A stretch of DNA of 64,000 nucleotides from Bacteroidota bacterium. Lineage in GTDB: Bacteria > Bacteroidota > JABWAT01. The first letter of the stretch is position 1, and every line of letters starts with the position of its first letter. The stretch is from NCBI GenBank assembly GCA_013360915.1, contig JABWAT010000001.1:718981-782980 (forward strand). The letters run 5' to 3'. Below the pieces are notes generated by a model. The model was not told where the DNA came from. It saw only the letters and a list, made by a program, of their open reading frames with translations, and did no database searches. Positions 7,448 through 18,073 of this stretch are shown here, one piece after another. Position numbers and translations under genes: made by a program.

Positions 7448-10400
7448 TTATTTATTTTTTAAAATTTTCAGAACCGATTGCCGTGAAACCCCACCGGTCA
7501 GATCGGTTACCTGCAGACGTACCATATAAAGGCCGTTCGCCACTTCATCGGTGTCTGAATCCCGACCATCCCATACGAGAAACGCCGATGCAGAGGAACC
7601 TGCAAAGGTCTGATCCAGTGTACGGACAAGCAATCCGTTCAGGGTATAAATTTTTGCTGTCATGCGCAGGGACACATCGCTCAGGTTGTGTGGCACATAA
7701 AACCTGACTTCGCTGCTGAACGGATTCGGATACGGCATAACCTCTCCCAGTTCAAGACTGGTCTGCCCGGTTATGGTAAACCTGGTGGATGACCGGGAAA
7801 AGTTATTGAAAGAATCCCACACCGTTACTTCGATGGAATGCGGCCCGGCGGGCAGACTTTCCAGCGGGAAACGAATAGAACCCGAGGTGTAATCATCTTC
7901 TGCAGACCGGTAATAGGGCCCCAGATCAATCGGATTTCCCTGATCTCCATTTAAAACACCCGTCAGCTGATGCCCGATTCCCAATCCGGTCATGTTAATT
8001 CCCGATTCATCAGTGACATCCGCAATCAGAAACCCGGTCGGGGCCACTGGCTGACCTGGTTGGTAGGTCGGATCGTTCACGTACAACCGGATGGTTGGAC
8101 CGGTGGAGTCAGCTATTCCGTGACCGGTACCAGATATGAAGTACAAGGCTGGTGATTTGAGAACTCCGGTCTGATTCCCGCTGTACAGATACCCGCTTAT
8201 CCGGCCCGGCAGCAGATTATTGGGCAACACGTCTCTTGGAACCATAAACGTGACCGAAAAATCACCTCCGGTAATCGTTGAGGTTCCTCTGAACAAATCA
8301 GGACCATCAATCTGATAGGATTTTATTGCACCCGGAATCGCCTGCCAGTCTGTGATATTGACACGCACCGGTTCACTTTTTATCCGGACATCCAGTTTAC
8401 CGGTAAACCCGGAATCTCTGGTTCCATCCACCGCAGCCACATATCCATTCAGAGTGAACTGGTTTCCGGTTTCCACCACCATCGGATCAATTTCCCGGAG
8501 AACACTGCCATTTTTCGTAATCAGTCCATTACGTTCCGGCAAAATCAGTTGCATGGCCGGGTCGGCCAGAAGACTGAACTTTTTCACGTTTGGTGAAAAG
8601 ATATATGGCGAGGAAGAGGAACTGCGTTGTGCGAAGATGTTTTTTGTTTCTGTGTAGATCTCTCCCAGACTCGGATTTCTGCCATCCGGTTTCCGTTTGT
8701 ACATGGTTCTGAACAAATGGTAGTTCAGAGCCAGATTGTTCGATCCGCCGATAACCTTGTTGGTAAAGACCACCCGGGTGGTCGTGAACAATCCCACCGC
8801 ACCAGATGGGGTCCAGGTCACCAGCTGCTCGGCTGCGCTCTGCAGGTCAGGATCATCAAATTTTCCAAAATCGCAAGTGGCAGTGATTACAAACGGCAAC
8901 CGGTTCTGGTTCGTCAGCTGAGGTAAAAATTCCGCAATTTCCAGAACACGTTCATGGGTCCAGACCCTGGTATTCCCGTGACCCGAATAATTCACCACCG
9001 CCGACCCTGAATTGAACAGACGGACCAATGCAGAAGCCGCTTCCGGTTTACGACGCCCCTGACTGGTAACAATGGTCGGAAAGTTCACAATGTACAGTTT
9101 GTTTCGCGTCAGGTAACCAGGAATCTGGGCCGCTACTGTTTCTGCATTTGAAACATGCAGGTCCTCATCATCCGTCGAGGTGGTGAGGCCATCATCGGCA
9201 ACCAGACTGACCAGAGAACGCCAGTCACCCGGTTCTGATTCTGTATCGTATCGGATCAGTTTAGAAACAATGATGTCGGCTTCTTTAACCGTCCGGACGG
9301 GCAAACGGCCGATTCCGATCTTGTGCAGTCCGTCTGATAAAAGGTAGGAATACTCATCATCGGTGGCATAACTCTCTTCCTCACTGAACGACTCCGGACT
9401 CTGGAAGGTCGGTAGATGATTGTAAGTGGTCTCCTTTTTCATCCGGTTTTTGAAGTCAAAGGAGGTATCTCCAAACAGCAACACGTTTTTCAGACCGCCG
9501 CCAGAGGCTGTGTAACAATCGGCCAGAAACTGCCTGATCGCATACAGGTTTGGCTTTCCGCCCGAGTAATAAGAATAGATGTCCCCGGCAAGAACCACCG
9601 CTCCGTTCCATCCCTGCGACTTCCGGTGATTCAGCAAACGGGTGGCTTCGGCCTTGAAAGCCGGAATGGTAATGATAAGATAATCGGGATTCTGGTCGAT
9701 GATTGGCGAAAGAGAGATGGGAGAAAACACCTCTGTTTTATCGATTGCCCTGAAACCCTCTCTGGTGTTGAATGCCCAGAAGCGGTTTGGAGCCGAAGGA
9801 GTCACCAGCCAGTTAAAACTGAATTCACCCCCATTAACCACCGCCGGACTGACCCGGACCGGATTGAGGGGATCATCGATTGAAAGGACTTCAATATTTG
9901 AATTGGGAAATCCGGACAGAGAAACCGTCCAGGTTTCCTGATTAGCGGGTCTCAGGTAAAAATCGGTCTGAACCTTGTTCTGGCTTAATGACTTCTGATA
10001 GTCAATGGTCAGCCAGTCAACCCATGCCGAGGCCGACCCTGTGGCGGTAAATTGATAGTCCAGCATCACCCGGTCATCCTGTAACAAGGCCGGAATGGTG
10101 GCAGGGGAGGTTTTCGAAGTGGCGATAACCCCGTAACCGGTAAATGAGATAACCGATCCGGTGGTCAGATTGGTAATCACCGGTCTTCCCGACTCCATTA
10201 CTGTGATTTTCCCGTCCTGTTCTTTCTTATACTGTGAAACAACCGAGGTTTGAAAATTCAGCGTGGTGCCCGTCTTGTATTCGGGCAGACGAAGGGTGTA
10301 GGCCTGTGTTGAGTTCGACACCAGCCGGCTTCCCATCCAGATCTGCCCCGTGTTGAGAAGGTTTTCAGAATCCGGATTGATAAAAACGGTTTTCCAACCT

Positions 10401-11221
10401 TCCCTTACTTCACGCGCCGGTTGAGTGCCGGGTACAGTACCCGTTTGCATCCGGCGACCGGGTGTGGTTCCGATGGTGATAAACACCTGGTGAAGACTGG
10501 TTAACTGATCATCATAAAAGGTCATCCGTCCCTGTGAGGTATTCCATACGGTTCCGGAAGCGGAGGTGGTGTAAAAGAAGTACTCCGAGCTTTCCTGAAA
10601 ACCTTCAGGCTCGGTTCCTCGTAGCAGCAAGGGAATTTCTTCAAGTCCTTGCTTTTCGGGCTGATAACCAGACACGGTGAACACTTTCAGGTTTCTCAGG
10701 TCGGAATCGGTTGGAAATCCCCATTTTTTCAGGTCACTGCCGGTAATCCGGTACACCCCTTCTTCGGTTATTCTGGCCGTGACCCACCGCCCCGACTCCA
10801 GAACCGGGTTATAACTGACGTTCTGCTGACGCTTCAGTAAGCCCGATGTCTGCAAGTCCTGCCGGATTCCGGTCTGGCAGGATGTGGCCAGATAAAAATC
10901 TTTTCCGTCGAAAAATCCGATAGCACCGGGGTCAGTGATCCCGGGACCTCCGCCCAGGCGGCTGATGGCCAGATTGCGTGAATCTGATTCACCGCCAATC
11001 CGGATCCAGCCGGACTGAGTGCCAGGTTGAATCTGGTGGGATTCATGGATATATAAAAGATCACCCGAAGGGGTCTGGTGAAGGAAAGGGGAGGCAACAA
11101 CCGCCACGAACTTTTGCCCGGCACGGATTGTCTTAAAAAGGGAGTCAGGGCTGAAATAAAGACTGGTTTGTGCACTACCCAGCGCAGGGATCAATAGCAG
11201 CAGCCAGATCAGGTGATTCAT
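7448..11221 (-). CDS. porU: Type IX secretion sortase PorU (C25 family)
   Basis: A 1257-residue gingipain-like cysteine peptidase that acts as the T9SS sortase, cleaving the C-terminal signal of cargo and attaching it to the cell surface. The signal peptide is MNHLIWLLLLIPALGSAQ. The C25 domain spans about residues 510-900, with the catalytic His748 in NYSGHGNTRVW and Cys783 in TATCDFGKFDDP. After it come Ig-like beta domains and a FlgD-like/T9SS-type C-terminal domain (PYPNPFSSEVRFYV, then NGLYMVRLQV), as in known PorU proteins. It heads the operon porU-porV-M6-like-peptidase/barrel. The 128-nt leader upstream contains only a weak promoter candidate (TTGT, about 20 nt, TATCCTAG). Confidence 0.92.
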   Translation of the reverse strand: MNHLIWLLLLIPALGSAQTSLYFSPDSLFKTIRAGQKFVAVVASPFLHQTPSGDLLYIHESHQIQPGTQSGWIRIGGESDSRNLAISRLGGGPGITDPGAIGFFDGKDFYLATSCQTGIRQDLQTSGLLKRQQNVSYNPVLESGRWVTARITEEGVYRITGSDLKKWGFPTDSDLRNLKVFTVSGYQPEKQGLEEIPLLLRGTEPEGFQESSEYFFYTTSASGTVWNTSQGRMTFYDDQLTSLHQVFITIGTTPGRRMQTGTVPGTQPAREVREGWKTVFINPDSENLLNTGQIWMGSRLVSNSTQAYTLRLPEYKTGTTLNFQTSVVSQYKKEQDGKITVMESGRPVITNLTTGSVISFTGYGVIATSKTSPATIPALLQDDRVMLDYQFTATGSASAWVDWLTIDYQKSLSQNKVQTDFYLRPANQETWTVSLSGFPNSNIEVLSIDDPLNPVRVSPAVVNGGEFSFNWLVTPSAPNRFWAFNTREGFRAIDKTEVFSPISLSPIIDQNPDYLIITIPAFKAEATRLLNHRKSQGWNGAVVLAGDIYSYYSGGKPNLYAIRQFLADCYTASGGGLKNVLLFGDTSFDFKNRMKKETTYNHLPTFQSPESFSEEESYATDDEYSYLLSDGLHKIGIGRLPVRTVKEADIIVSKLIRYDTESEPGDWRSLVSLVADDGLTTSTDDEDLHVSNAETVAAQIPGYLTRNKLYIVNFPTIVTSQGRRKPEAASALVRLFNSGSAVVNYSGHGNTRVWTHERVLEIAEFLPQLTNQNRLPFVITATCDFGKFDDPDLQSAAEQLVTWTPSGAVGLFTTTRVVFTNKVIGGSNNLALNYHLFRTMYKRKPDGRNPSLGEIYTETKNIFAQRSSSSSPYIFSPNVKKFSLLADPAMQLILPERNGLITKNGSVLREIDPMVVETGNQFTLNGYVAAVDGTRDSGFTGKLDVRIKSEPVRVNITDWQAIPGAIKSYQIDGPDLFRGTSTITGGDFSVTFMVPRDVLPNNLLPGRISGYLYSGNQTGVLKSPALYFISGTGHGIADSTGPTIRLYVNDPTYQPGQPVAPTGFLIADVTDESGINMTGLGIGHQLTGVLNGDQGNPIDLGPYYRSAEDDYTSGSIRFPLESLPAGPHSIEVTVWDSFNNFSRSSTRFTITGQTSLELGEVMPYPNPFSSEVRFYVPHNLSDVSLRMTAKIYTLNGLLVRTLDQTFAGSSASAFLVWDGRDSDTDEVANGLYMVRLQVTDLTGGVSRQSVLKILKNK

Positions 11222-11734: not shown

Positions 11735-11766
11735 TTTGTAAAAAGAAATAGGTTTCCGTACCTTTG
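11735..11766 (+). promoter_or_regulatory. Bacteroidota-type promoter for the GlgA-like operon
   Basis: TTTG at 11735-11738 is followed after exactly 20 nt by TACCTTTG at 11759-11766, an excellent match to the -33/-7 consensus TTTG-N19-TAnnTTTG of the primary Bacteroidota sigma factor. Transcription would start near 11772, leaving a leader of about 50 nt before the ATG at 11821. Confidence 0.75.
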
Positions 11767-11820: not shown

Positions 11821-13305
11821 ATGGCTAAGCCTGTAAGTGTTCTTTATGTTTCCACAGAGGTGAGCCCGTTTGCCAAAACGGGAAGTCTCGCCGATGTTGC
11901 AAATGCCCTTCCCATGTCCTTATTCAACATCGGGACCGAGATTCGGGTGGTCATGCCCAAGTATGGATTTATCAGCGAACGCAGAAGCCGCCTGCATGAA
12001 GTGATCCGTCTGAAGGACATCAGCGTGACCCTGAACGGGACCGAGCGGAAGATCAACGTGCGGGTCGGAGTCCTTCCTGATACCCGGGTACAGGTCTACT
12101 TCATTGACAATGAAGAATTCTTCAAACGAGATTCTCTGTACACCAACCCGAAAACCCAATCGGATTACGAAGACAACCACGTCCGTTTTGCCTTTTTTGC
12201 AAAGAGCATCTTCGAAATGCTCAAACGTCTGGGCTGGCAACCCACCATCATTCACTGCAATGACTGGCACACCGGCCTGATCCCCTACTATCTGAAACAG
12301 TATTACCGTCAGGATGAGTTCTTCTCATCCATGAAAACCTTGTTTACGGTTCATACCACTGCCTACCAGGGTATTTTTGCTTCACAGGGTGCATCAGAGA
12401 TTGATATTGCTCCCGACCACCAGAACGAAGATGTCATTCTTCAGAATGGAAGCCTGAATTTTCTGAAATGCGGCATTACCCAGGCCGATTTCGTTTCAAC
12501 CATCAGTGAACGGTATGCACGGGATACAGCCGAAACCCCCGAGGTTTCCAATGGTCTTCATCCCTACTTTAAAAAACTGAGCAACCACTATACCGGCATT
12601 TCCAACGGTCTGGATTACAAAGTATGGGATCCTGAGAAGGACAAGCTGATCCCTGCCAATTACTCTGCTGATCACCTGTCGGGAAAACTGGAATGCAAAA
12701 AGGCCATCGTTGAGAAATTGGGACTTCCCTTTAACGAGTCCACTCCGGTGGTCGGAATCGTCACCAGAATGGTCGATAACAAGAGCATTGATCTGATGAT
12801 CGACGTAATTCCCGACCTTCTGGCTAAGGACATTCAACTGGTTTTCATGGGACAGGGGGAAGAAAAGTACCAAAAGGTACTCGAATCCCTGAAAAACCGC
12901 TATCCCGGACGCATGGGCGTGACGTTTACTCATGACCATCAGGTGTCTCACATGATTTTTGCAGGCGCCGATATCTATCTCATGCCTTCCAAATTCGAGA
13001 ACAGTGCAGCCAGTCATTTATCATCCCTGCGCTACGGAACCATTCCTGTGGTATTTCCGACCGGTAATCTCGATGATTGCATTGTGGATCTGAAACAATC
13101 TTCGGTCAAAACGGCTACCGGTTTCAAAATGGCTGCCCTGACCCGGGAAAGCCTCATTGAAACGGTTTCTCTTGCACTCGAAACCTATGGCAACCGTGAT
13201 AAATGGAACCACCTGGTCCGTAATGCCATGGCAGCCGATTTCTCCTGGGAAAAAACGGCAGCCGACTATCTGGCATTGTATAAAAAATTGTTGAAGGAAA
13301 AGTGA
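11821..13305 (+). CDS. GT5 glycogen/starch synthase-like protein with altered donor loops
   Basis: A 494-residue, two-Rossmann-domain GT5 protein like bacterial GlgA (ADP-glucose to alpha-1,4-glucan). The acceptor/donor regions are recognisable: KTGSLADV (19-26), HCNDWHTGL, TRMVDNKS (315-322) with Arg316 and Lys321, and FENSAASHL with the catalytic-type Glu393. Compared with canonical GlgA, several glycine-rich donor loops are changed: KTGGL to KTGSL (Ser22), QKG to NKS, FEPCGLTQ to FENSAASH, and TGGL to TGNL (Asn416). The N-terminal half strongly resembles the short GlgA-N-like protein that precedes DUF4270 genes in many Bacteroidota (for example YGFISERRSRLHEVIRL). Catalysis is therefore uncertain. 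The gene leads a plus-strand cluster and overlaps the next gene by GTGA. Confidence 0.85.
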   Translation: MAKPVSVLYVSTEVSPFAKTGSLADVANALPMSLFNIGTEIRVVMPKYGFISERRSRLHEVIRLKDISVTLNGTERKINVRVGVLPDTRVQVYFIDNEEFFKRDSLYTNPKTQSDYEDNHVRFAFFAKSIFEMLKRLGWQPTIIHCNDWHTGLIPYYLKQYYRQDEFFSSMKTLFTVHTTAYQGIFASQGASEIDIAPDHQNEDVILQNGSLNFLKCGITQADFVSTISERYARDTAETPEVSNGLHPYFKKLSNHYTGISNGLDYKVWDPEKDKLIPANYSADHLSGKLECKKAIVEKLGLPFNESTPVVGIVTRMVDNKSIDLMIDVIPDLLAKDIQLVFMGQGEEKYQKVLESLKNRYPGRMGVTFTHDHQVSHMIFAGADIYLMPSKFENSAASHLSSLRYGTIPVVFPTGNLDDCIVDLKQSSVKTATGFKMAALTRESLIETVSLALETYGNRDKWNHLVRNAMAADFSWEKTAADYLALYKKLLKEK

Positions 13306-13877
13306 AACCGGCCATTTTTCTGGACCGGGATGGCACCTTGATTGAAGAAGTGAATTTCCTTCACAAACCCGAGCAGGTCAGACTGACACCGGGTGTGGTT
13401 GAATCGATTCGTAAGGCCAATCAACTTTCTGTACCGGTTATTGTTGTATCGAATCAATCGGGAGTGGCCCGGGGACTCTTTTCCGAAGCGGATGTTCACA
13501 AAGTCCATCAGCATATCGATTCCCTGCTCGGAAAGGAAGGCGCACGCATCGATTCGTGGTTTTTCTGCCCCCACTATCCCCTCAAAGACGGATCTGCCTA
13601 TGACCGCTCCTGCCGTTGCAGAAAACCAGGCACCGGCATGTTCGAAGAAGCCGCTGGCCGCTTTCCCATTCATTTCGGAACGAGTCTGATGGTCGGTGAC
13701 AAAGAAATGGATATTCTGGCGGGAAGATCCATGGGAATGCGTTGTGCCCTGGTTGAAACTGGTTACGGACGTTCCCTGTCCACCCGAATTGAACTAACTC
13801 CCTCCGACTACGTCTTTGTCAATGCCGGACAGGCAATAAGATGGTTTACCGACAAATTAGAGGCTTATGAAAATTAG
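13302..13877 (+). CDS. gmhB: D,D-heptose 1,7-bisphosphate phosphatase-like HAD protein
   Basis: A 191-residue HAD-IIIA phosphatase. Motif I is FLDRDGTLI (Asp8 and Asp10), motif II is VVSNQSG, and the GmhB-type zinc loop CPHYPLKDG...SCRCRKPGTGM supplies Cys-x-His and Cys-x-Cys ligands; motif IV is VGDKEMDI. GmhB removes the 7-phosphate from heptose 1,7-bisphosphate during ADP-heptose synthesis for lipopolysaccharide or S-layer glycans; related enzymes act on histidinol phosphate. The start is GTG, overlapping the TGA of the GlgA-like gene, with GAAGGAAA upstream, so translational coupling is likely. No other heptose genes are visible nearby, so the substrate is assigned by family only. Confidence 0.82.
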   Translation: MKPAIFLDRDGTLIEEVNFLHKPEQVRLTPGVVESIRKANQLSVPVIVVSNQSGVARGLFSEADVHKVHQHIDSLLGKEGARIDSWFFCPHYPLKDGSAYDRSCRCRKPGTGMFEEAAGRFPIHFGTSLMVGDKEMDILAGRSMGMRCALVETGYGRSLSTRIELTPSDYVFVNAGQAIRWFTDKLEAYEN

Positions 13878-15090
13878 CATTTTCCCCATTCTCTCCCTGG
13901 CGACCCTGGTATTTACGGCCTGTTCAGATGACAACCCAACTCTGGGTTCCGATCTGATTTCTGCCGACGAACAGGTGAAACTGGAATCCATTTCGACCGA
14001 CACGCTCAGCGGATTCAGGTTCTCTGTTTCCTATGAAGACTACAATCCGGTAACCGCCAATGCATCATATCTGACCATTGGCGAAACCAATAATCCACGC
14101 GCCGGAAATCTGACCACTCAGGCTGCCATCCGGCTGATTCAGGGAAGTCAGAACGGTTTTGTCCCCGATTCACTTGTTTCCGTACTGGAGGCAAAACTGT
14201 TCCTCACCCCCTCTGCTATCAATCTGGGAGACACGACCCGTCCGTTTACACTCCGGATCCAGGAATTACAGAACCTGCCGGTTTTTTCATCCATGAAACT
14301 GAAAGACCAGCTTTCTGCAGGCCCGGTGGTGGCCGATACCACATTTGCCGGTATTCTCCGCTCCCGGTTTTCGGTCACGGTCTCTAACCGTTCCTGGGTG
14401 GAGAACATGCTGAAACTATTCGGGAACACCTCAGACACCCTTTTACTGAATCAATATTCCAAGGGATTACTGCTGAGCAGCCCGGCTTCAAACGGCCGTT
14501 CCATTGGCTTATTCGGGTTTGCAAGCAACCTGTCCTTTTTTGGTTACCTCGATGACCCAGAAGTCCGAGTCCGCACTGTTATCCGTACCGGCAACCAGCA
14601 AACCGACACGGTCACAGTCACCTTTACGCTGGGATCGGCCAATCAATTATCATCCTTTACCCCGGGTCCGGTTTTCTCTGATCCCAATTCACTTGGAATT
14701 TATGCCCTGTCTGGTAAACGTGCCAAGCTGACTTTCGATACCTCGGTTATTCCCACAAAGTCCACGGTCTTTTCCGGCAAACTTGTCTTTTCTGATATCA
14801 CAACCGATACCACTCAATACCGGTCTTCGATTCTGGTGTCTCTCACAAGTATTAATCCGACCGATCAGTCAGCCACCAGTCCTCTCAATTCCACCAGACT
14901 TGCTTCCAACCGGAAACTGTCCTTCAACATTGCCACCATCATGCAATACTGGAGCCTGCGCGGCGCTGGTCCCGGGTTGTATCTGATTCCCGGTTCAGAA
15001 GCCTCTGCAACCGATTACATGGAGTTTTCACTTGACCCTGCTGTGACATCCTCCCGTCCCGTACTTTCACTCGTTTTCTCACGGCGGTAA
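13867..15090 (+). CDS. DUF4270-like outer-membrane lipoprotein
   Basis: A 407-residue lipoprotein. The N-terminus MKISIFPILSLATLVFTAC ends in a lipobox-like FTAC, after which DDNPTLGSDLI matches the opening of DUF4270 proteins. The rest is Ser/Thr-rich beta structure and ends DPAVTSSRPVLSLVFSRR. DUF4270 proteins have no established function; in Bacteroidota they are commonly encoded next to a GlgA-like gene, as here, which supports the assignment. It overlaps the gmhB-like gene by 11 bp and is followed after one base by an outer-membrane protein gene. Location in the outer membrane is inferred from the lipid anchor. Position -3 of the lipobox is Phe rather than the usual Leu. Confidence 0.72.
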   Translation: MKISIFPILSLATLVFTACSDDNPTLGSDLISADEQVKLESISTDTLSGFRFSVSYEDYNPVTANASYLTIGETNNPRAGNLTTQAAIRLIQGSQNGFVPDSLVSVLEAKLFLTPSAINLGDTTRPFTLRIQELQNLPVFSSMKLKDQLSAGPVVADTTFAGILRSRFSVTVSNRSWVENMLKLFGNTSDTLLLNQYSKGLLLSSPASNGRSIGLFGFASNLSFFGYLDDPEVRVRTVIRTGNQQTDTVTVTFTLGSANQLSSFTPGPVFSDPNSLGIYALSGKRAKLTFDTSVIPTKSTVFSGKLVFSDITTDTTQYRSSILVSLTSINPTDQSATSPLNSTRLASNRKLSFNIATIMQYWSLRGAGPGLYLIPGSEASATDYMEFSLDPAVTSSRPVLSLVFSRR

Positions 15091-15091
15091 T

Positions 15092-16321
15092 ATGAACGTA
15101 ATGAAAACCCTCTTCATCTTCGCCTGTTTGTTATTGGTTCCATCCCTGTATGCCTCAGGCCCCCTGAGCGGAAAATCCGGACTGGGAACACTCAGTCATC
15201 CGGTGTTGAATAATCTTTCCGGATTGGCCGGAGCAGGATTGGCAGTCCGTGATCCTGAATTGTTTCATCCGCTGAATCCTTCACAATGGGTATTCAGCAG
15301 AAAGACTCATATCATCTCCTCTTTCAACTGGGAGGGGTTTTCTCAGTCAGGAACCTCAGGAGAAGCCTTTTACAGCGGATTCGGATACCAGGGAACCATG
15401 CTCGTGTTTCCGGTCAAAGCCGACTGGTCTGTCGGATTTTCGCTGCTTCCTTATTCACGCTCCGATTATGAAATCAATCAGACACTGAATGCACCCGATG
15501 GGTCCGTCATCAGCACCTATTATGGTTCTGGCGGACTTTCCGCACTTCGGGCAGGAGCCGGCTACCGGTTATCTGCGACCTGGTCGGTCGGTGCCTCGGC
15601 TGACTACTATTTTGGTGTCATCAGCAAAAACCGCACAGTGGCGTATTCGACCGGAACGAATTCCTACCTGTCCGATGCATACAAAGTGTACGGCTATGGT
15701 ATCACTCTGTCTGCCACAACTTTTCTGCGCCCGGAGTGGATTGGTGAAAAGGAACAACTGACCGGTGCCATCAGCATTCAGATTCCCTTTGGTCTGAGTG
15801 GTACCCGCACTCAATATGAATATTCCGATCTGATTGGTGACACCACCCAAACTGTTACCGATATCACCGGAGCTCTTCCATTTACTCTGCTGGTTGGAAT
15901 GGCCTATTCCAGAGATGACCGGTTAACCATCGCTGGCGATCTTGTTTTCAGTTCTTCCTCCTCCATTGACATTCCTGCCAACGAGGCCAACCCCTCAAAG
16001 GATGTTTTGACATTAAGAACAGGGTTTTCCTATATTCCTGACAACAGCCCGGGAGCCAGATTCACCAACCGGATCCGCTACAAAGCCGGATTTTCGGGTG
16101 GATTAAGCCATGTGGTCTACTCTGGTATCCAACAGGATGAATGGGGGATTTCATCCGGTTTTGGGCTCCCCCTGCCCGGCCTTGGAAGTGTATTGGATGT
16201 GGGTGGCGACATTATCTGGAGAGGATATCTCGCAGGGACTCACTATAAAGACCAGGTGTACCGCCTGAATGTCGGTATCAACCTGACAGAACTTTGGTTT
16301 CAAAAACGTATGATCGATTAA
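15092..16321 (+). CDS. Outer-membrane beta-barrel protein, function unknown
   Basis: This 409-residue protein has a signal peptide (MNVMKTLFIFACLLLVPSLYAS) followed by GLAGAGLAVRDPELFHPLNPSQW, the pattern seen at the start of FadL/OmpP1- and PorV-like barrels (small plug, then the 'many Asn-Pro' stretch). After that come strongly alternating strands such as WSVGFSLLPYSRSDYEI and LRAGAGYRLSATWSVGASADYYFG. It starts one base after the DUF4270-like gene and is followed by a TPR protein gene, so these three likely act together in the envelope. A transport role would fit the fold, but no substrate can be named. Confidence 0.7.
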   Translation: MNVMKTLFIFACLLLVPSLYASGPLSGKSGLGTLSHPVLNNLSGLAGAGLAVRDPELFHPLNPSQWVFSRKTHIISSFNWEGFSQSGTSGEAFYSGFGYQGTMLVFPVKADWSVGFSLLPYSRSDYEINQTLNAPDGSVISTYYGSGGLSALRAGAGYRLSATWSVGASADYYFGVISKNRTVAYSTGTNSYLSDAYKVYGYGITLSATTFLRPEWIGEKEQLTGAISIQIPFGLSGTRTQYEYSDLIGDTTQTVTDITGALPFTLLVGMAYSRDDRLTIAGDLVFSSSSSIDIPANEANPSKDVLTLRTGFSYIPDNSPGARFTNRIRYKAGFSGGLSHVVYSGIQQDEWGISSGFGLPLPGLGSVLDVGGDIIWRGYLAGTHYKDQVYRLNVGINLTELWFQKRMID

Positions 16322-16337: not shown

Positions 16338-17645
16338 ATGAAACAATTTACAATGGCAACCCTTGCTCTGATGGTTTTTACTGTCTCTGCATATTCGCAG
16401 GAAACACCCCCTCCCGCTGCTGAGAACCCTGCCGCCCAGCAACAAATTAACCGGAACTGGAGTCTTTTTTCAGAATATCATAAGAACAAAGACTACATCT
16501 CCTCCATCAAATACGGAATGTGGTTGGCCAAAAATGCACCCGAGGCCAAAAGAACCCTGTGGCAACGTCTTCAGGAATCCTTTGTGAATGTTTACCTCGA
16601 CTCCACACTGGCCCCTGAAGCAAGAGCGCCCTATCTCGATTCATCCATGATCGTTCTGGATCTTGGCCGTTTCTATACCCCCGATAAAGCACAGAGTTTC
16701 TGGCTTAGAAAGGGCTTCAACTTCGAAACCTATTACAAAAATGCGGATAGCGCCATAGCCAACTATCAGTCTGGTATTGCCATGAATCCGGCCGAAGTGG
16801 ATGTTGCGTATGCAGTCATGTGCGGCCGTCTTATGATCCAGAAGGAAATGGTTCAGGAGACCATTGACCTTTACTCTTCCCTGATTGATGCCTATGAAGC
16901 TGCAGGAAAGCCTGAGCCAGCACAAACCCTCCGCTATGAACTGAGTGCCATTGCCAATCCTGAGCAATTGATTGAGGTTTATAAAAAGGCCCTTGAAGGT
17001 GAAAAGGATCCCGAAAAACGCAAAAAATTGTTCCTCTCCCTTTATAAGCTGTATGCCGATTCCATGAAGGAAGATGAAAAAGCAATTGAGTACATCAACC
17101 AGCTGATTGCTGTTGACCCTTCCGCAACCAATTACCGTCTGCAGGGAAAAACCCTTTACAGTCTTGGTAAATACAACGAGGCCATCGGTTCCTATCAGAA
17201 AGCTCTGAAAGCGGAAGAAACCAAGGAAGACCTCCTGAACATTGCTCAGGCTTACGTAAACCTTGAAAAAGGGTCGCAGGCACGTGACTATGCACGCCGG
17301 GCTCTAAAAATTGATAAAAATCTCGGACGTGCCTACATCCTGATTGGTCAAGCCTATGAAGCGGCTGTTGCTGATTGTGTTGGAAAAAAGGGTGGCTGGA
17401 CGAAAATTGAGTTTTCTGACAAGGTGGTTTATCTGGCCATTGAAGAAGCCTATCTGAATGCAGCCCGGGTAGATGAATCGGTAGCAGGAGAGGCTAAAAA
17501 CCGGATCCAAGCCAATAAACGCAGCAATCTTTACCCGACCAAGGAAGACTATTTCCTTCGCCAGCAAAAAGCGGGCGACGTCATCAACATCAATTCAGGT
17601 TGCTATGCATGGATTGGTGAAACGGTCACCGTTCCAAAATTATGA
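16338..17645 (+). CDS. Secreted TPR-repeat protein
   Basis: 435 residues with signal peptide MKQFTMATLALMVFTVSAYSQ and then a Pro/Ala-rich stretch. From about residue 35 on the protein is all helical with tetratricopeptide repeats; the clearest units are around INQLIAVDPSATNYRLQGKTLYSLGKYNEAIGS and YQKALKAEETKEDLLNIAQAYVNLEKG. The C-terminus carries a Cys-containing tail (NINSGCYAWIGETVTVPKL). TPRs bind proteins, so this is a periplasmic scaffold or adaptor candidate for the adjacent barrel and lipoprotein. A good ribosome site (AAAGGA) precedes the ATG. The stop overlaps the rpiB start by ATGA. Confidence 0.75.
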   Translation: MKQFTMATLALMVFTVSAYSQETPPPAAENPAAQQQINRNWSLFSEYHKNKDYISSIKYGMWLAKNAPEAKRTLWQRLQESFVNVYLDSTLAPEARAPYLDSSMIVLDLGRFYTPDKAQSFWLRKGFNFETYYKNADSAIANYQSGIAMNPAEVDVAYAVMCGRLMIQKEMVQETIDLYSSLIDAYEAAGKPEPAQTLRYELSAIANPEQLIEVYKKALEGEKDPEKRKKLFLSLYKLYADSMKEDEKAIEYINQLIAVDPSATNYRLQGKTLYSLGKYNEAIGSYQKALKAEETKEDLLNIAQAYVNLEKGSQARDYARRALKIDKNLGRAYILIGQAYEAAVADCVGKKGGWTKIEFSDKVVYLAIEEAYLNAARVDESVAGEAKNRIQANKRSNLYPTKEDYFLRQQKAGDVININSGCYAWIGETVTVPKL

Positions 17646-18073
17646 TCGGAATTGCCTCGGATCATGCCGGGGTTGACCTGAAATCTTTCCTGATAGCCGA
17701 CCTTTCCCGGACCGGGCAACCGATCCGGGATTTTGGTCCATCAGGAACCGAGTCGGTTGATTATCCCGATTTTGCGCAATCACTCTGCCGTGAATTGCAA
17801 TCTGGCCAAGTTTCACGCGGTATTCTGATTTGCGGAAGCGGCATCGGAATGAGTATTGCCGCCAACCGGTTCAGAGGAGTCCGCGCTGCGCTGGTATGGA
17901 ATCGTGAAACTGCTGCTCTTTCACGTCAGCATAACAATTCAAATATTCTGGTTCTTCCCGCCCGCTTTCTGGATAAACCAACAGCACTCGACATTGTTAA
18001 TATCTGGTTGTCCACCGATTTCGAAGGTGGACGTCATACCCGCCGGGTCGAAAAAATCGAACTTCCCGGTTAA
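17642..18073 (+). CDS. rpiB: Ribose-5-phosphate isomerase B
   Basis: A 143-residue LacAB/RpiB isomerase that interconverts ribose 5-phosphate and ribulose 5-phosphate in the pentose phosphate pathway. The family motifs are in place: IGIASDHAG at the start, VDYPDFA, then GILICGSGIGMSIAANR with the catalytic Cys64, and SRQHNNSNIL. The usual Leu-Gly-x-Arg segment reads LPARFL, a small variation. It is translationally coupled to the TPR gene and lies 36 nt upstream of glyA. The rpiB-glyA pairing is frequent in bacteria, linking pentose and one-carbon metabolism. Length is normal. Confidence 0.9.
   Translation: MIGIASDHAGVDLKSFLIADLSRTGQPIRDFGPSGTESVDYPDFAQSLCRELQSGQVSRGILICGSGIGMSIAANRFRGVRAALVWNRETAALSRQHNNSNILVLPARFLDKPTALDIVNIWLSTDFEGGRHTRRVEKIELPG

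Follow-up and report, generated by a model that had tools for sequence, protein, structure and literature searches.

The gene at 11821..13305 (+) of the window, the whole 64,000-nucleotide stretch of Bacteroidota DNA analysed here, encodes a 494-aa GlgA-like protein of the GT5 fold, as established from its ORF, profile matches, a tree and an AF2 model. With moderate confidence, and judging from sequence comparison, we regard it as a cytosolic, non-glycogen derivative of the GT5 enzymes that would bind through its N-domain and be made together with BamH and BamG. Such a protein would descend from a glycogen synthase that long ago became established at the head of a bamH-bamG operon in the Bacteroidota/Ignavibacteria/Chlorobia group, the role of glycogen synthase in the cell presumably being left to a separate GlgA.

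The full two-domain GT5/GT-B fold is preserved. The protein matches Pfam PF08323 and PF00534, and its AF2 model has the GlgA fold with a pLDDT of 93.9 and TM-scores of 0.91/0.94 against the A. tumefaciens glycogen synthase 1RZU; for E. coli 2QZS and 1RZU together, the TM-scores span 0.85-0.94 at 30-32% identity. There is no visible signal peptide. With TIGR02095 (GlgA) it scores 478.8 bits for a cut-off of 328.45, which places it inside GlgA by score; among the matches listed, no NCBIfam glycogen-synthase equivalog model gives it a score that reaches the model's own cut-off.

A residue-by-residue comparison with E. coli GlgA as the reference reveals four altered loops, all encoded on the plus strand. 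The donor loop KTGGL is changed to KTGSL (K19-T-G-S22-L, residues 19-23, 11875..11889), QKG to NKS (N320-K321-S322, residues 320-322, 12778..12786), FEPCGLTQ to FENSAASH (F392-E393-N-S-A-A-S-H399, residues 392-399, 12994..13017) and TGGL to TGNL (T414-G-N416-L, residues 414-417, 13060..13071). Lys321 and Glu393 are kept within their loops, as are Lys19, Asp25, His178 and Arg316; together they correspond to K305, E377, K15, D21, H161 and R300 of E. coli. The initial annotation had described the four loop changes and the retention of Arg316, Lys321 and Glu393 correctly for this ORF. It had missed two further substitutions: His371 stands in place of the adenine-stacking Tyr/Phe (Y355 in E. coli), and the conserved His-Asn motif reads His-Thr (N179T; N162T by the E. 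coli count). The role of the stacking residue is known from ADP-bound structures (PMC6086201). Tested for GlgA membership, the protein has the charged catalytic and diphosphate-binding residues and lacks the intact KxGGL/QKG/EPCGL(T/N)Q/TGGL loops with their aromatic adenine stacker.

The altered positions hardly vary elsewhere. Among 80 GT5 proteins from other genomes, drawn by two N-domain peptide patterns and hence biased to typical N-domains, N162 and G306 are unchanged in 80/80, G18, P378, G380 and G400 in 79/80 and Q383 in 78/80 (E. coli positions); the exception at P378, G380 and G400 is L119, a sister species of the window's. Because these positions are near-invariant, the altered loops are not a matter of chance. 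The window's family comprises four genomes of its class in our comparison. Residues P378, C379, G380, L381, Q383, G400 and Y355 (E. coli numbering) are changed in 4/4 of its members, the loop FE(T/N)SA(T/A)SH is common to all four species, and their TGGL loop reads TG(S/N)L. The changes at S22, S322 and T179 occur in the window's species alone, whose protein therefore carries G18S, G306S and N162T (E. coli numbering) beyond what its sisters have. Identity in the C-domain is 63-64% between the window protein and its sister species, and the dN/dS of the linked gene lies at ~0.01-0.11 in the pairs with estimable dS, dS being saturated. Purifying selection thus acts on the window gene, which is intact. 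Neither chance nor a frameshift produced the altered loops, given the uninterrupted ORF, the low dN/dS and the FE(T/N)SA(T/A)SH loop in four species. The strong claim of relaxed C-domain selection in the window's family was rejected, since its C/N rate ratio does not exceed the canonical GlgA value in a consistent way.

Glycogen genes are found elsewhere in the genome, and the window gene lies outside any glycogen gene cluster. A second GT5 at C3:71624-73084 has the intact motifs KAGGL, QKG, EPCGLNQ and TGGL, two GlgC matches score 429.9 and 421.7 bits, around the cut-off of 424.9, and GlgP is present, plus a GH57 match. The initial annotation had suggested looking for a second, canonical glgA with glgB and glgP: GlgA, two GlgC and GlgP are indeed there, but no GH13 branching enzyme scores over the cut-off in this genome. 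With a canonical glgA, glgC and glgP elsewhere, the window gene is not needed for glycogen. Its being the genome's only glycogen synthase was rejected given the separate intact GlgA.

The gene heads an operon of the order GlgA-like, HAD phosphatase, BamH-like, BamG, TPR and RpiB, all on the plus strand with overlaps or short gaps. The stop of the GlgA-like gene is overlapped by 4 bases by a GmhB/HisB-N-like HAD-IIIA phosphatase (13302..13877, profile match), and the latter by 11 bases by a BamH-like (DUF4270-type) lipoprotein (13867..15090, profile-profile comparison) with the lipobox LVFTAC followed by SDD. A BamG-family outer-membrane protein comes next (15092..16321; NCBIfam NF053685 BamG, E 1.3e-53); its 182.6 bits are under the curated cut-off of 250, and the place beside the BamH-like gene supports the assignment. 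Then follow a TPR-repeat protein, a recurrent operon member (16338..17645, profile match and synteny), and an RpiB-type sugar-phosphate isomerase (17642..18073, profile match) that shares 4 bases with the TPR gene. The HAD-IIIA phosphatase of the window scores under the GmhB cut-off. Upstream of the operon, on the opposite strand, lies PorU, the Type IX secretion sortase (NF033707, 801 bits; window 7448-11221 (-)); several relatives (f11, f4) likewise have it beside the operon. A search of the window for RNA families found none.

Ahead of the GlgA-like gene, 11735..11766 (+) matches what we take to be the consensus of a Bacteroidota-type promoter, with a -33 TTTG, 20 bases and a -7 TAccTTTG. 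TTTG-N20-TAccTTTG has its sole match in the 64 kb window here, and since 0.52 are expected in the window the match alone is weak. All four family members, and several relatives as well, carry the same motif at -79 to -86. Motifs of this -33/-7 type are in use at F. johnsoniae promoters (PMC12611786).

We name the lipoprotein only BamH-like because it has no PF14092 (DUF4270) match at E 5, and no Pfam match of any kind, and is related to BamH by profile-profile steps. Iterated profiles and hhalign steps between separately built alignments join it to DUF4270 proteins: from the window-family lipoprotein to the Ignavibacteria-type (99.2%) and on to Bacteroidia DUF4270 (98.8%), or from the Ignavibacteria-type to the Rhodothermia-type (99.75%) and on to the DUF4270 set (99.3%), the direct step from the window-family lipoprotein to the DUF4270 set being weak (81.9%). 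DUF4270 is BamH: the DUF4270 gene BT1786 (PMC10434189) is BamH2, a paralogue of the BamH Bt4306 (PMC12578637). The two gene families downstream in the window operon are those of the Bacteroidota BAM complex (PMC12611786, PMC12578637), of which BamG and BamH are parts; both are essential in F. johnsoniae (PMC12611786). In the available portions of the same two papers, the GlgA-like protein is not described as a BAM subunit. The fjoh_0824 promoter is used in inducible expression systems for bam genes, bamH itself being Fjoh_0823 (PMC12611786); fjoh_0824, numbered next to bamH, would be the short GlgA gene of that species.

The tie to bamH extends well beyond the window. Among 52 genomes carrying the linked gene, 47 have the GlgA-like gene followed by BamH, with or without the HAD gene in between: 4/4 in the window's family, 25/25 among other full-length forms, 18/20 among short forms and 0/3 in f8, which is probably Chlorobiaceae. 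L112, a further genome outside the 52 that belongs to f17 (probably Kapabacteria-like), has this order too. The statement in the initial annotation that Bacteroidota often have short GlgA-like proteins before DUF4270-type (that is, BamH) genes is borne out by this synteny and by PMC10434189 and PMC12578637. The HAD gene stands between GlgA-like and BamH in most full-length relatives and also beside the GlgA-like gene in f8; it is absent from the short-form loci and from the f15, f17 and f22 loci. In L046-L050 the linked gene is retained with BamG no longer adjacent. As f8 keeps the linked gene without an adjacent BamH, there are exceptions to the tie with BamH. BamH-like lipoproteins behind the HAD gene were also observed in Chloroherpeton/Thermochlorobacter-type genomes (f5, f26; L082:3488-4780, L083:4210-5415, L086:8616-10058), with no BamG seen beside them there; PMC12611786, by contrast, describes Chlorobiota as lacking BamG and BamH.

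Linked GT5 proteins form one clade in an N-domain tree (100/98), apart from 39 ordinary GlgA, and again on full length with the motif columns removed (100/100). This clade takes in short and linked full-length forms, intact-motif members included; within it the short forms are one clade, and the window's family, f8 and f17 are one clade each. The GT5 tree with short forms proposed in the initial annotation accordingly sets the window protein outside ordinary GlgA. Its likeness to GlgA (GT5; TIGR02095; E. coli 2QZS, A. tumefaciens 1RZU) resides in the full-length GT-B fold and the charged catalytic side chains, whereas its rewritten loops, its Tyr-to-His stacker, its place away from a glycogen operon and its clade, apart from that of the genome's own GlgA, set it off.

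Most full-length linked relatives have intact motifs, and so do the ordinary GlgA copies in the relatives' genomes. Besides the window's family, the exceptions are f17 (KTSEL; His161, Arg300 and Lys305 lost), f8 (RVSSL; Arg300 and Lys305 lost) and the short forms, which are without the C-domain and have in most cases lost Lys15/His161. In the f8 genomes checked, no GlgC or GH13 GlgB scores over the cut-off and the linked gene is the sole GT5 match; its GT5 therefore cannot serve the usual ADP-glucose glycogen pathway. The f8 protein (L110:3886-5349, L111:6672-8135, L031) reaches 879 bits with the 'starch synthase' model NCBIfam NF010698 (cut-off 754), an equivalog name that is probably wrong in function for f8. 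This PRK14098 / NF010698 type resembles the window protein in its linked clade, HAD neighbour, full length and altered donor loops; the window protein keeps the Arg300/Lys305 equivalents and has BamH, while f8 has lost both residues and has no adjacent BamH. In f4 (G006, G077, G096) the bamH-linked copy, with intact motifs, is the sole GT5 match, GlgB is present and there is no clear GlgC, so that the linked copy may be a real glycogen synthase there.

What the linked clade shares lies mainly in the N-domain. R42, G49, R54, H59, R63, L64, Q91, N97 and N119 are conserved across the clade but not in ordinary GlgA; R42, R54, H59, R63, Q91 and N97, which lie outside the named donor-binding loops, reach 96-100% in the linked clade versus 0-15% in others. 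The window protein has R42, R54, H59, R63, Q91, N97 and N119. Most of the clade-specific invariants fall in the segment of residues 38-119 (11932..12177, +), as defined by alignment, and the short forms, too, show little or no variation at these positions. The basic patch of this segment would suit a phosphorylated ligand or an acidic partner. With the active site lost repeatedly among its relatives and these N-domain residues kept, the window protein probably has another job than making glycogen.

The other part kept by the short forms is the C-terminal helix, located at residues 476-492 of the window protein (13246..13296, +) by AF2 and profile. In GT-B enzymes the C-terminal helix packs back on the N-domain. 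A helix profile from the full-length forms has its best match at most 7 residues from the C-terminus in 15/20 short proteins, with an individual shuffle p of up to 0.02 in 8/20, these being related and not independent sequences; AF2 likewise predicts a C-terminal helix in the short form (L035-L053 are short-form genomes keeping it). Since the helix was kept after loss of the C-domain, the short form is better described as a domain excision than as a simple truncation. This short 'glycogen synthase' of Bacteroidota (~270 aa, N-domain) shares with the window protein its clade, its place before DUF4270/BamH and its N-domain invariants; the C-domain is complete in the window protein, though with altered loops, whereas the short form is without the C-domain Rossmann fold and ends in the C-terminal helix. 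BT_4307 is presumably one such short form. PMC10797578 cites it as a potential glycogen synthase. Apart from a 'fragment' remark, literature searches on this family turned up nothing.

The initial annotation had further proposed that the full-length protein represents a precursor stage of the degenerate short family. Clade and neighbourhood agree with this, and in an rpoB+rpoC host tree the short-form lineages sampled all have the window's family as their sister (94/94); with such a sister relationship a full-length stage would be expected there, although a living sister lineage is no ancestor. The gene tree itself does not discriminate between shared and parallel decay. A first version had intact-motif full-length forms separating the window's family from the short clade (98/93), but the order that put the window's family outside the intact Chloroherpeton-type forms vanishes without the motif columns and was dropped; the grouping of the window's family with the short forms is then neither supported nor rejected (p-AU 0.43, support 14/35). 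Nearly as plausible as not is a history in which the window gene decayed independently of the short-form event and is therefore no intermediate. Active-site loss elsewhere in the clade, in f17 and f8, makes this a live alternative, as f17 did decay on its own (AU p 8.9e-6 against grouping with the window's family) and as the first tree would have it; the disappearance of that tree's order and the host phylogeny speak against it. It concerns history only and is compatible with the reading of a non-glycogen, N-domain-binding protein.

The main rival to that reading, which we hold to be rather unlikely, is that the window protein, rather than being a pseudoenzyme, remains a glycosyltransferase whose donor or acceptor has changed, for instance to another nucleotide sugar, the loops being specificity changes. 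The six retained residues from Lys19 to Glu393 and the conserved C-domain would fit such an enzyme, the altered positions (FEPCGLTQ, TGGL, the stacking Tyr now His) surround sugar and base, and the neighbouring GmhB/HisB-type HAD phosphatase and sugar-phosphate isomerase suggest sugar chemistry; there is also a precedent in CpGBSSI, a GT5 enzyme that diverged near the adenine-stacking residue and prefers UDP-glucose (PMC6086201). Yet the window's species goes beyond its sisters at G18S, G306S and N162T, as in relaxation, and sister lineages lost catalytic residues or the whole C-domain and still kept the gene. That the protein could be a second, weak ADP-glucose glycogen synthase with merely tolerated variation in its loops draws on its TIGR02095 score and on the intact-motif linked relatives, but seems improbable in view of the near-invariance of the changed positions, the scores under every listed glycogen-synthase equivalog cut-off, the canonical GlgA and the gene's place outside a glycogen cluster. 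Least credible of all, and very improbable, is a decaying passenger at the operon head, kept since its removal would disturb bamH/bamG expression: the gene does head the operon, with overlapping genes downstream, but dN/dS is low, clade-specific invariants persist across the whole group, and the gene is kept in L046-L050, where BamG is non-adjacent, and in f8, where no BamH adjoins it.

We thus favour a non-glycogen GT5 derivative binding through its N-domain, against which it must be said that every charged catalytic side chain checked is still present in the window protein, beyond what a dead enzyme would require, that many linked relatives are fully intact and the f4 copy could be a real glycogen synthase, and that the window-family C-domain is not clearly relaxed compared with the canonical copy. 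Selection would chiefly keep the N-terminal Rossmann domain, above all the Arg/His/Gln/Asn patch (38-119), plus the C-terminal helix, and the protein would likely not polymerise glucose but bind either a ligand (phosphorylated or a nucleotide) or a partner protein. In the window's lineage the C-domain has stayed, with the diphosphate-contacting Arg316/Lys321 and Glu393 kept and the loops for glucose and adenine rewritten; in crown Bacteroidota it was cut out. We infer from these comparisons that the window protein does not make glycogen, has a binding role and is functionally tied to BamH/BamG. Co-production with BamH and BamG makes a regulatory or assembly role in outer-membrane protein biogenesis, or in envelope sugar status, likely. 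More tentatively, a glycogen synthase recruited to the bamHG operon may have become a non-catalytic cytosolic partner or sensor that regulates or assembles BAM, by way of repeated active-site loss and finally excision of the catalytic C-domain, the window protein standing for the full-length stage.

Altogether, short Bacteroidota GlgA-like proteins are annotated as glycogen synthase although they are without the catalytic C-domain. The window's family adds to them a version that is full-length but has its loops rewritten, in a lineage adjoining those that lost the C-domain. The conserved tie to bamH, essential or important in the newly described BAM complex, gives the family a testable role, and the invariant residues of the linked clade show where to mutate.
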